From Fuerstiella sp. (GTDB lineage: Bacteria; Planctomycetota; Planctomycetia; Planctomycetales; Planctomycetaceae): DNA of 64,000 bases. Position 1 is the stretch's first letter. The number at the start of each line of letters is the position of its first letter. The notes beneath the pieces are model-generated. The model was given only the letters and a program-made list of their open reading frames with translations, did not search any database and was not told where the DNA came from. The translations under genes were made by a program, and so were the position numbers. The DNA is taken from the NCBI GenBank assembly GCA_022447225.1, contig JAKVAZ010000007.1, positions 360,475 to 424,474 of the forward strand, in the 5' to 3' direction. Shown one piece after another: positions 51,368-56,588 of the stretch.

Positions 51368-52192
51368 ATGTCCGAGAAAAATCCCAATCGCCGTGAGTTT
51401 TTAAGCAGGTCATCTGTAGCCCTGCCGATTGTTTCCCTGTCGACTGAGGAATCCCCGACTGATTCGAAGCCCGACGATAAATTTCAGCCTGAAGAAAACT
51501 GGCGCGAGCGAATGAAGGCACCGGATGACGGCACGAAGTTCGGCTGGTTCGTTGATACGCGCCGCTGTTTCGGTTGTCACGGATGCGAGGTGAGCTGTAA
51601 GGCTGAAAATGATGTGCCTCTGGGAAATTATATTCGACAGACCATCTACAAAGATGTTGGAGACTACCCGAAGGTTGCTCGTGTGTTCCTGCCGATGTCG
51701 TGTCAGCACTGTGAGGATGCACCCTGTATTAAGGCATGCCCCTGTGGTGCCTTGCATAAGGAAGCGGGCGGGACTGTTGCGGTTGATTATGATGTGTGTT
51801 CGGGGCACGGTACCTGTGTGGACGTCTGTCCTTACGGCGCAATTTATCTCGATCCCGTGGCGCGGCAGGCCGTGAAATGTCATAACTGTTACCATCGAAC
51901 TGAGATCGGTATGGAACCGGCCTGCGTTCCAACGTGTCCTTCGGAAGCGCTTTATTATGGCGATCTCAATGATCCTGAGTCGAAAATCAACCGGGCCATG
52001 GCCGAGGCCGAGGCCGACGACGGTGAATTGAAGCAGTTGCGGCCCGAGAAAGGGACCAGTCCGCGGATGTGGTTTGCCGGACCTGCTCCCGTGGAAGCGG
52101 AAGAAGATGTACCGCGGGAAGGTGAGTCTTACAGCCCCGATGCGTACAGCATCTACAGCTGGAAGAAATCAGGAACGCAGGCTCATGAATGA
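51368..52192 (+). CDS. Four-cluster ferredoxin-like Fe-S subunit (DmsB/PsrB type)
   Basis: A 274-residue electron-transfer subunit with a twin-arginine-like leader (NRREFLSRSSVALPIVSL). The Cys groups are 67/70/73/77, 112/115/120/124, 144/150/154 and 171/174/186/190, giving four cluster motifs in the DmsB/PsrB/NrfC style. In the third, the usual CxxCxxCxxxCP reads CSGHGTCVDVCP, so His147 replaces a Cys. Trp at a similar position makes the NarH centre a [3Fe-4S] cluster, so the cluster type here may be altered. It is coupled to the catalytic subunit (eight-base overlap). Confidence 0.9.
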   Translation: MSEKNPNRREFLSRSSVALPIVSLSTEESPTDSKPDDKFQPEENWRERMKAPDDGTKFGWFVDTRRCFGCHGCEVSCKAENDVPLGNYIRQTIYKDVGDYPKVARVFLPMSCQHCEDAPCIKACPCGALHKEAGGTVAVDYDVCSGHGTCVDVCPYGAIYLDPVARQAVKCHNCYHRTEIGMEPACVPTCPSEALYYGDLNDPESKINRAMAEAEADDGELKQLRPEKGTSPRMWFAGPAPVEAEEDVPREGESYSPDAYSIYSWKKSGTQAHE

Positions 52193-55046
52193 TAATCAAG
52201 AGTCACGGCGTCGTTTCCTCGAACTCGGTATGGCAGCCGGTACCGTAGCCGGTCTGGCCGCATTCGGTTGCCGGGACGGGAAACATCAGTCACAGCCGGG
52301 GCCTGGGACTCGGGAGGATGCCTCCGCGACGTCTCCGGCGGGCGACCTTGAAACATGGAAGAAATTGAAAGGCACTCCTTACGAAACGGGTGACTTTAAA
52401 ACGATGCCGGGAGTATGTCAGTTACCCGGTCCGCTGGCCAGGCGCAACTGGCCGGATCGCAACAAGTACAAAAATGCCCGAAAGGTACCGGGCATGTGTC
52501 AGCTGTGCAGCACTGTTTGTGGCATTATCGGATACGTAAAAGACGGCCGCGTCCTCAAGATCGAAGGCAATCCGAATGATCCCAACAGCCGTGGACACCT
52601 CTGCGCCCGCGGCCAGGCTGGTTTGAACCATCTGTACCATCCCGAACGCCTGCTGTATCCCCTGCGGCGTGTGGGGAAACGTGGCGAGGGAAAATGGAAG
52701 AGGATTACCTGGGACGAGGCTCTGGACGAAATCGCCACGCGACTGAAGGTCGTTCGCGAAAGCGGCCGGCCGGAAGAGTTTGCTTTTCATCAGGGCCGTC
52801 AGCGGAGCAAAGACGCCCTGGCTCGGTTCCTCAATGCTTTCGGAACCAAAACACAGTTGAGTCATCGAGCGCTTTGTTCCGGTAACCGACGTGCGGCCAA
52901 TCTGACCTATCTGTGGGAGAGTGACTGGGATCTGAACGACGTTGAGCATTCAAAATATATCCTCAACTTTGGCTCAAATGCCTTTGAAGCACACCAGGGG
53001 CACGTCCCGTTTGCGACGCGGATTCAAAACGGCCGTTTCCGGAACGGTGCCAAGCTGGTCACATTCGATGTGCGGATGTCCAACACGGCTGGTGGCAGCG
53101 ACGAATGGTTTGCGCCCTTTCCAGGGACAGATGGTGCGATTGCGCTGGCCATGAGCCATGTGATCCTCAGAGAGAATCTTCATGACGCCGATTTCATTGA
53201 AGGCTGGACGAATGTCACAGTCGATGAGTTGCGGGAGCATCTGCAGACGTACACTCCCGAATGGGCCGAACAGATCAGCGGTGTCTCCGCCAAGGATATC
53301 CGACGCATTGCCATTGAGTTTGCGGAGGCCGCTCCGGCATGTACGACGATGTGTAACCGGGGAAGTTCGGCCCACATCAATGGTTTCTACAACGATCGAG
53401 CTATTAATTTATTGAACGCTGTCGTAGGCAGCGTCGGCAGGAAAGGCGGCTGGTGCTGGTCACCGTGGGGCGGACTTGATCCGCTGGTCAAAACACCTCC
53501 GATGCCGCCCGGTGCAAAGACATGGAGCGTATTGGAAGATCCGCCTGAGTACCCGCTGGCCAATGTTTGGCGGAGGATGCGCGTAGGGGAGGTGATTTAC
53601 CTGTATTTGCTGCAGGGGCGGGCAAAACTTCAGGCCTACATGACTTACAACCTCGATTCGCCGCTGACCTGGCCGGAAGAAAGTCTGACGCAGAAGGTAC
53701 TGACCGACGAAGACTCAATCGGGTTTCATGTCTGTATTAACTGTTTCTACAACGAAACGGCCCACTACGCTGACATCGTCCTGCCGTGGGCTACGTATAT
53801 GGAACGCTGGGATCTGGATGCCCGTGCATCCTACAACCTGAGGCCGTATGTTGGTTTGCGGACACCGATGATTGAGCCTCTGGGTGAATCGAAAGACGTT
53901 CGTGAGTTCTTCCCCGAACTGGCCCGGCGGATTGGCGGCGGCATGGAACAGTGGTATCAGGAGTCGACCGAAGAATACATGGAACAGTGGGCATCGAATG
54001 TTCCGAAAAATCCTGTAACCGGAAAGCGGGGACTGGCGCGATTGCTTGAGGAAGGCGCCTGGGAAGGTGACAGAGAACCCTTTTATGAACCGTATAATAT
54101 TCCACTGAGTGAAGACGACATGCACGGAGCCGGTATCGATGAATCGACCGGAGTGATTACGAAAAACGGCGTTGGCATCGGTATCATCAAAGATGGCAGA
54201 CCCGTACGGGGTTTTGCCACTCCCAGCCGCCGTTTCGAAGTCCGCAGTCTGTTTGTCCAAAAGATCGGGCTTAATGAGGATTGTTCAGATCTGATCGCGG
54301 CCAGCGGCGTCACCAGGACGAAGAACCGAAACGAAAAACATCATGGTCACGAAGTTAATATCGACCAAATGCCGATTTGGTTCCAGCCGCAGGAGCATCG
54401 TGACCTGGGAGAGAATGAGTTGGTGATGACCAGCTTCAAGTGGAATGTTCACAACCATGGACGCACCATGAATCTGAAATGGCTGGCCGAGATTGTCCAC
54501 TCGAATCCGGCTTGGATTAATCCTCAGACGGCGTCCCGATTTGGATTGAAAAACGGCGACTGGATTGAAGTGACATCGTACTATTCACAGGAAATCGAGA
54601 AGCAGTCGCCGCACTTAAAACGAGACGATCTGCAGGTTGATAACGGACGGCGTGTGGTGGCGACAATGAGGGTTCCGATTGTGTTAATGGAGGGCCTTCA
54701 TCCGCAGGCGCTGGCGATGAGTAACAGCTGCGGGCACTGGCAGTACACGAATGTTGCTCAGGCGCGGCCAGGCGGTGTCGGTGTGCCTGACGAACCAAAC
54801 GAATCGACAGTGGACCAATCAGCGACATATCTGGCAGGCAGCGATCCGGTGACTTATCGTGACGCCGACTGGGAACGGAACATGTGGTGGCAGGACACAT
54901 CCGGCGGCGACCCGGAACGATGGACAGCGAATACCGGTAACGGCTGGAATCAGAACCGACTGATACCTATCACTCCGGATCCGGTCAGCGGGCAGCAGGC
55001 GTATCACGATACGGTCGTTTCGATCCGGAAGGTGGGCCTGACATGA
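52185..55046 (+). CDS. Molybdopterin-dependent oxidoreductase, Tat-exported catalytic subunit
   Basis: The ATG at 52185 gives MNDNQESRRRFLELGMAAGTV with a Tat signal, 953 residues. A [4Fe-4S] site is formed by Cys105, Cys108, Cys112 and Cys140 (MCQLCSTVCG and HLCARG). Cys231 in HRALCSGNRRA is the probable molybdenum ligand, which fits the polysulfide/thiosulfate reductase-like subgroup of the DMSO-reductase family. The C-terminal cofactor-binding domain begins near NHGRTMNLKW. The substrate is unknown. It overlaps the Fe-S gene by eight bases and the chaperone gene by four. Confidence 0.93.
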   Translation: MNDNQESRRRFLELGMAAGTVAGLAAFGCRDGKHQSQPGPGTREDASATSPAGDLETWKKLKGTPYETGDFKTMPGVCQLPGPLARRNWPDRNKYKNARKVPGMCQLCSTVCGIIGYVKDGRVLKIEGNPNDPNSRGHLCARGQAGLNHLYHPERLLYPLRRVGKRGEGKWKRITWDEALDEIATRLKVVRESGRPEEFAFHQGRQRSKDALARFLNAFGTKTQLSHRALCSGNRRAANLTYLWESDWDLNDVEHSKYILNFGSNAFEAHQGHVPFATRIQNGRFRNGAKLVTFDVRMSNTAGGSDEWFAPFPGTDGAIALAMSHVILRENLHDADFIEGWTNVTVDELREHLQTYTPEWAEQISGVSAKDIRRIAIEFAEAAPACTTMCNRGSSAHINGFYNDRAINLLNAVVGSVGRKGGWCWSPWGGLDPLVKTPPMPPGAKTWSVLEDPPEYPLANVWRRMRVGEVIYLYLLQGRAKLQAYMTYNLDSPLTWPEESLTQKVLTDEDSIGFHVCINCFYNETAHYADIVLPWATYMERWDLDARASYNLRPYVGLRTPMIEPLGESKDVREFFPELARRIGGGMEQWYQESTEEYMEQWASNVPKNPVTGKRGLARLLEEGAWEGDREPFYEPYNIPLSEDDMHGAGIDESTGVITKNGVGIGIIKDGRPVRGFATPSRRFEVRSLFVQKIGLNEDCSDLIAASGVTRTKNRNEKHHGHEVNIDQMPIWFQPQEHRDLGENELVMTSFKWNVHNHGRTMNLKWLAEIVHSNPAWINPQTASRFGLKNGDWIEVTSYYSQEIEKQSPHLKRDDLQVDNGRRVVATMRVPIVLMEGLHPQALAMSNSCGHWQYTNVAQARPGGVGVPDEPNESTVDQSATYLAGSDPVTYRDADWERNMWWQDTSGGDPERWTANTGNGWNQNRLIPITPDPVSGQQAYHDTVVSIRKVGLT

Positions 55047-55805: not shown

Positions 55806-56588
55806 TTACACAACCTCGGTACGGTTTCCTGTACAGGGACGGTACGGTGTATCGAACCCTCGATTGCCGGGAACGACGTTCAGCTGCTCGTGGAGTTGTG
55901 TGCATTGCTGCTCCCGGTCTTCTCTGAGTCGGCGGAGGTCGCTGCACCAGCCTGCCTCACTGCAACTGCGATGGCCGAGGACGTTGTTTAGTTCCAAGGG
56001 ATCAGCCAGCAGGTCGTAAGCTCCGTCGCCGTATTCCGTGTCGCTCAGGTAAGCATGAGTTGTCGTTCGTACACCCTGTACCAGTTCTTTGCGTCGTCCG
56101 GCGCTGCAGGTGCCGGTGGGAAACGTGTTATGTCCCAGCAATTCTCCCCTGTAATTTCCGACCTGTGCGAACACCGCCTCGTGAAGTGGCTGTCGGGTTC
56201 CCGCACGTAACCATGCCAGCAGGTCTTTGCCCTGTGCGTAGTCGGGAACGTTCAGTCCTGCCAGGTTCAGCATGGTCGGAAACAGATCGACTGACTGAAC
56301 CAATCCCTGGACCGTTTCATTTCGCGGTGCAGTGATTCCCGGTGAGGTGCGCTGAGAAGTGGTACATGCAGCAGACACTCGTACGGTACCTCGCACTTTT
56401 CGAACAGACCTTTTTCGCCCATGAAGTTTCCATGATCGGAGCTGACCACATACGCATCGCGGAACACAATCGCCTTATTCGCGAGGCCCCGTGTCGCGGG
56501 GCACTTGACCAGAAGGTGCACCGTACACACCGGTTGCCGACACTTTCTGCCGTCCCGGTGTGATGTAGAGAATGTTGGGTTTCGGCAT
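55806..56588 (-). pseudogene. Decayed sulfatase with internal deletion and frameshift
   Basis: Reading leftward from the ATG at 56588, the first 37 codons read MPKPNILYITPGRQ and SATGVYG, a clear sulfatase N-terminus (normally PNILYIMTDQQ), ending at a stop at 56475-56477. In another frame at about 56460-56335 lies VVSSDHGNFMGEKGLFEK and HVPLLSAP, from the later half of sulfatases. From about 56335 a third frame continues with VQSVDLFPTMLNLAGL and the C-terminal region to 55806. The middle of the gene, including the formylglycine Cys, is missing. It lies 51 bases downstream of the propeller glycosidase-like gene. Confidence 0.85.

Follow-up and report, generated by a model that had tools for sequence, protein, structure and literature searches.

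A His-for-Cys exchange at one iron-sulfur cluster motif of a planctomycete PsrA/ArrA-like molybdoenzyme for which no membrane anchor was found

Iron-sulfur subunits related to the planctomycete protein

By both sequence and fold, the closest solved relative of the Fe-S electron-transfer (beta) subunit described here is PsrB (2VPW chain B), to which the available part of the source assigns four [4Fe-4S] clusters and an NrfD-like partner, PsrC (PMC8076601). The same text ascribes one [3Fe-4S] relay among four clusters to ActB of alternative complex III and to QrcC (PMC8076601); FeS1 of ActB is described as a [3Fe-4S] cluster at +140 mV (PMC5928083), and both proteins work with NrfD-type quinone subunits according to the available extracts (PMC8076601, PMC5928083, PMC6303296). 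Ethylbenzene dehydrogenase, a soluble periplasmic enzyme that includes a heme b gamma subunit, belongs to the type II DMSO reductase family; crystal structure and EPR titration identify its FS4 as a [3Fe-4S] cluster with an Em of +70 mV, as excerpts of the report state (PMC8840923). In NarH, Cys196, Cys217 and Cys223 are given as the ligands of the FS4 [3Fe-4S] cluster (PMC5338063), and the alpha subunit with which it belongs is, like those of type II enzymes, described as Asp-ligated (PMC8301774). Single-ligand loss at FS4 is already known in type II enzymes, namely in NarH and in EbdB (2IVF chain B) of ethylbenzene dehydrogenase. NarH works with a membrane subunit, NarI, and Cys102 of DmsB was reportedly the subject of earlier work (titles by Rothery and Weiner). 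Among the homologues read, the nearest sizeable group is a set of planctomycete beta-NrfD fusions (L021-L041) with 39-47% identity to our beta subunit.

What would be new in the locus described here is an FS4 ligand loss that, as far as sequences tell, appears fixed in a Cys-ligated, PsrA/ArrA-like planctomycete lineage for which no anchor was found. A literature search, with subscription papers outside its scope, found no account of FS4 ligand loss in such a lineage. Seemingly novel Cys-ligated lineages near PsrA have been reported, in the part of the text available (PMC10100899).

A planctomycete operon for an alpha-beta enzyme

The window, a stretch of 64,000 nucleotides from Fuerstiella sp., holds three overlapping genes in the order beta-alpha-TorD, with the beta gene first (Table 1). 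The N-terminal RR motif of beta is RREFL.

Table 1. Positions in the window of the three genes and of the cluster motifs of the beta subunit
Feature	Position	Strand	Evidence or remark
Fe-S electron-transfer (beta) subunit, 274 aa, RR-type (Tat-like) N-terminus	51368..52192	+	Fer4_11 79.5 bits; fold matches PsrB
Cluster motif I, C67-FG-C70-HG-C73-EVS-C77	51566..51598	+	Cys in 90/90 orthologue loci covering the motif
Cluster motif II, C112..C115..C120..C124-P	51701..51739	+	NarH alignment
Cluster motif III, C144-SG-H147-GT-C150-VDV-C154, then P	51797..51829	+	sequence, orthologues
Codon CAC, His147, place of the fourth FS4-type ligand	51806..51808	+	aligned to NarH W220 and the EbdB His
Cluster motif IV, C171..C174..C186..C190	51878..51937	+	all four Cys intact
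Molybdopterin oxidoreductase catalytic (alpha) subunit, PsrA/ArrA-like, RR-type signal	52185..55046	+	8-base overlap with the beta gene
TorD/NarJ-type chaperone, 194 aa	55043..55627	+	4-base overlap with the alpha end

The original prediction for this stretch had read the third motif of beta as C144-S-G-H147-G-T-C150-V-D-V-C154-P and held the remaining cluster motifs to be intact. Translation of the reading frame bears out both statements: 15 of the 16 Cys expected for four cubane clusters are present, and the absent one is the second of motif III, the single place at which beta departs from the four complete four-Cys motifs of PsrB/ArrB/TtrB-type subunits. When beta was aligned to NarH, H147 fell on W220 and C124, C144 and C150 fell on Cys196, Cys217 and Cys223, and the comparison that had been drawn with NarH, of a Trp at the equivalent place of a [3Fe-4S] cluster, stands in the light of the available part of the source (PMC5338063). 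C124 of motif II is accordingly a predicted ligand of the altered cluster. In the same alignment column EbdB, like our protein, has His; PcrB has Ala; and PsrB, which keeps all four Cys of motif III, and ArrB have Cys. The protein thus resembles NarH in having the fourth Cys replaced and differs from it in the residue that replaces it.

An AlphaFold model of beta (mean pLDDT 88), computed from a 79-row alignment drawn from 79 of 108 rows and carrying no cofactors, has the four-cluster CISM beta-subunit fold. Its matches are PsrB (Z 25.3; 1.9 A over 190 residues), ArrB (Z 22.3), PcrB (Z 19.9), EbdB (Z 18.7) and NarH (Z 16.3). Scores against NCBIfam equivalogs were all under their cut-offs, with 153.9 bits for TtrB (cut-off 416), 137.3 for NrfC (377.6) and 137.6 for ArrB (450), as were those against the type II beta model TIGR03478 (99.7 bits, cut-off 480.7) and the EbdB model (92 bits, cut-off 740). 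With His147, beta shares with type II beta subunits a residue other than Cys at the fourth FS4 place.

In the alpha subunit, numbered from one residue after Met, the FS0 residues Cys104, Cys107, Cys111 and Cys139 as well as Cys230 are kept in 66 of 66 aligned alphas. In the alignment Cys230 falls on the Cys known as the Mo ligand of PsrA and ArrA and takes its place here. By alignment, alpha has the Cys Mo ligand and all-Cys FS0 that mark the PsrA/PhsA group (Mo ligand types are set out by family in the available part of PMC10100899). Of the curated models, alpha scores highest with PhsA, where its 362 bits fall short of the cut-off of 694, and the closest among solved structures is 2VPW A, the large chain matching PsrB. 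Because FS0 is all-Cys and Cys230 aligns with the Cys of PsrA and ArrA, alpha is not of type II; membership of the type II DMSO reductase family is ruled out by these two features and by low model scores. In the Mo ligand and FS0 the enzyme is unlike that of EbdB, and its host genome has no EB_dh match. The signal region of alpha (window 52185-52271) ends in a lipobox-like Cys28, which is present in 39 of 66 orthologues, and some alphas may for this reason be lipoproteins.

Of 78 named loci, 72 have alpha following beta: an automatic count gave 70, to which L043 and L059, with overlapping open frames, were added. In four others the contig stops before an alpha could be reached, and the remaining two have no alpha match in the available DNA. 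These two, L101 (9911-10795) and L102 (9686-10825), have a His-type beta, and their next frames resemble, by eye, a glycosyltransferase and a CoA-ligase-like protein. A TorD match was found in 52 of the 78 loci, downstream in 46 and upstream in 6, and 12 of the 26 loci with no such match have more than 6 kb downstream of beta; the chaperone is either not always present or too diverged for the search used. On the minus strand of the window, an ORF at 55806-56396 resembles, by eye, the C-terminal part only of a sulfatase, and is possibly a broken or misread gene.

Residue 147 and membrane anchors among homologues

Homologues were drawn from a related set of 59 genomes (11 with a match at E<=1e-20), a phylum set of 392 genomes (129 with a match at E<=1e-30) and a GTDB contig scan that gave 79 loci, and the position of His147 was read in 120 loci overall. 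Of well over 100 places in the phylum set, 29 (L013-L041) were examined residue by residue in addition to that of the window. The same His was looked for in planctomycete orthologues, and so was a Cys at position 147: among 91 orthologue loci (at least 58% identity, and including the window's own copy and four re-fetched genomes), 85 have His at this residue, 5 have Ser, 1 has Asn and none has Cys, and the other 15 cluster positions are Cys wherever covered. When identical, X-holding and partial rows were set aside, every one of which was His, 80 distinct rows remained, 74 with His, 5 with Ser and 1 with Asn. A non-Cys residue 147 is a family trait, common to a large planctomycete group. Among the 29 farther homologues, Cys stands at this position in 28 and Asn in one (L020). 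The claim that relatives have CxxCxxCxxxCP therefore holds for PsrB, ArrB and 28 of 29 farther homologues, and does not hold for the direct orthologues (Cys in 0 of 91) or for the type II beta subunits NarH (Trp), EbdB (His) and PcrB (Ala). In type II-like beta loci of planctomycetes (L125-L154) Tyr occupies the open corner of FS4: all 27 pattern-parsable loci of the 30 fetched have it, and in that sample 63 of 294 genomes matched, none over the TIGR03478 cut-off. Some of the planctomycetes bearing orthologues come, by record title, from ocean surveys (TaraRedSea, ALOHA).

In the tree, the 80 His, Ser and Asn rows group together to the exclusion of the Cys rows (support 99/97). A single change accounts for Ser at 147 (support 70/84), whereas Asn, in L103 and in the outgroup L020, requires two. 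A single ancestor for all non-Cys rows, L020 included, was neither rejected nor established (AU p 0.378, with long branches and an unsettled bootstrap); the alpha of L020 is 55.6% identical over 446 residues. One Cys-bearing locus that is cut short (L012) was left out of both the tree rows and the anchor count.

A fused or adjacent TM-rich anchor accompanies 26 of 27 Cys-bearing homologue rows. All 21 of the beta-NrfD fusions have Cys at position 147, unlike our beta subunit, and continue into a part of 292-345 residues with 5-7 predicted TM segments, which the NrfD model matched in 5 of 5 genomes tested (G259, G414, G309, G109, G116). Four further loci (L007, L009, L010, L011) adjoin an ORF with 8-9 TM segments and an ORF with four CxxCH motifs, and L008 adjoins an ORF with 8 TM segments, by hydropathy only in all five. 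The counterexample is L120, a Cys-bearing row whose 6.4-kb record shows no TM-rich ORF.

Searches with PF03916 (NrfD), whose control matched in 4 of 14 known genomes, found nothing in any of the six same-family genomes that carry the His protein, one of them 79% complete. In the host genome (97% complete), which has one Fer4_11 match, profile searches found no NrfD, DmsC or EB_dh, and the genome thus lacks a match to the NrfD or DmsC anchors that quinone-linked CISM enzymes have in operon or genome; the controls of an NrfD_2 profile were silent. A hidden anchor or cytochrome subunit near beta was looked for and rejected, no such family occurring in more than a few of 79 neighbourhoods (the window and L042-L119, by crude longest-ORF calling that can miss or misframe genes); an ORF with at least 6 TM segments or CxxCH lay within 7 kb in 19 of the 79, at scattered distances and on either strand. 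NrfD genes are present in 7 of 7 deeper-branching genomes with the His protein, and in six of these (G256, G209, G159, G115, G230, G252) the NrfD match lies beside a further beta-like frame, 530-689 aa long, so that to judge by the frames a putatively anchored paralogue coexists there with the anchorless copy. The genome of the Asn outgroup L020 (G253) has one NrfD match, on another contig.

Residue 147 separates anchorless rows from anchored rows with one exception, L120. A link between its state and anchor loss is suggestive only, because NarH, ActB and QrcC pair a [3Fe-4S] cluster with quinone-linked membrane partners. The two groups offer a natural test of whether an exit cluster is tuned to its electron acceptor or not, and they mark a conserved planctomycete operon for study.

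Cluster type and the exit of electrons

One of the four beta clusters most likely holds three irons instead of four, judging from homology. In the one measured case, EbdB, a three-iron cluster accompanies a His at precisely this position (PMC8840923, whose available part does not take up the His itself), and a His here is thus compatible with such a cluster. The original prediction had left open whether His147 ligates the cluster or changes it; the orthologues with Ser or Asn and the case of EbdB favour a changed cluster. Loss of the fourth iron at the FS4-position cluster is likelier than ligation by His147, because Ser and Asn are tolerated in orthologues and the precedent for His has a [3Fe-4S] cluster. 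By analogy, the redox potential of the altered cluster would be raised, a tuning of a kind known from other enzymes.

The account that we hold to be probable, taken as a whole, is that of an anchorless alpha-beta enzyme of the PsrA/ArrA lineage with a [3Fe-4S] cluster at the FS4 position, a non-ligand His147 and a soluble, high-potential electron carrier. The RR-signal-bearing molybdoenzyme would probably be periplasmic and would work with no anchor. Its FS4-position cluster (C124, C144, C150, with H147 at the open corner) would be [3Fe-4S] and not [4Fe-4S], and His147 would most likely occupy the corner without acting as a ligand, perhaps with a hydrogen bond to the cluster. The Mo site, FS0 and the beta clusters would exchange electrons with one another, and the FS4-position cluster would be the exit. 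In anchored cousins a four-Cys exit cluster would face a quinone site; a three-iron cluster would give the last relay a higher potential and would suit a soluble carrier, for example a cytochrome c. In outline this would resemble ethylbenzene dehydrogenase, where the exit cluster would exchange electrons with a soluble carrier. We infer the type of cluster at the FS4 position from sequence, and infer too its potential and the export, partner, direction and substrate of the enzyme. The soluble carrier is the weaker part of the proposal, and three irons would be no proof of a soluble partner because ActB and QrcC work with NrfD-type quinone subunits and NarH with NarI.

The conservation of His in 74 of 80 distinct rows is more than a space-filler needs and speaks against a non-ligand role. 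It favours a reading in which three Cys and His147 together hold a [4Fe-4S] cluster, an arrangement that would tune the potential without iron loss; clusters of this kind occur in FS0 of type II alpha subunits, in the available parts of the reports (PMC8840923, PMC8387239). We regard such ligation as unlikely, given the five Ser and one Asn among orthologues, the Asn of outgroup L020 and EbdB, which has His at the same place and a [3Fe-4S] cluster in the excerpted source (PMC8840923). Residue 145 (window 51800-51802) bears on the matter as well: it is Cys in 53 of the 80 rows, Ser in 21, Asp in 5 and Gln in 1, and the five Ser147 rows all have Asp145. This covariation is the main reason why readings with another ligand stay alive. 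Ser at 147 could itself be an iron ligand; that His147 ligates the fourth iron and an oxygen ligand does so in the Ser147/Asp145 group, as a ligand swap alongside anchor loss and the use of soluble carriers, is more doubtful still.

Less credible again is a shifted 4Fe motif in which residue 145, Cys in many orthologues and Asp in the Ser group, is the fourth ligand. Cys145 in 53 rows and Asp145 in all five Ser147 rows would fit, but Ser stands at this place in the window protein and in 20 further rows, and Gln in one. The original prediction had named such a restored Cys as a point against it; because the window has Ser145 and 27 of 80 rows have no Cys145, no shifted motif restores the fourth ligand family-wide, and for the window protein Ser145 rules one out. 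In addition, by ferredoxin geometry, the residue directly after C144 (i+1) is poorly placed to reach the open corner. A degenerate site with no cluster, at which the relay would stop one cluster earlier, has the loss of one ligand in its favour and nothing more direct; every one of the 91 orthologue loci keeps C124, C144 and C150 where it covers them, and three Cys are enough for [3Fe-4S] in NarH as the available text gives it, and we consider this reading very improbable. The chance of a sequencing or assembly error at H147 is negligible: the CAC codon differs from TGC at two bases and from TGT at all three, more than a single miscalled base could account for, and the same His recurs in many separate assemblies, so that codon distance and orthologues together rule it out.

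Ligand loss is also seen elsewhere among the homologues. In NrfC-like proteins of same-family planctomycetes, the second Cys of motif I is replaced by Thr in L007 (1000-1902), by Ser in L009 (682-1902), by Ala in L010 (635-1567) and by Ser in L011 (1015-1914), a further apparent single-ligand loss, at a different cluster.
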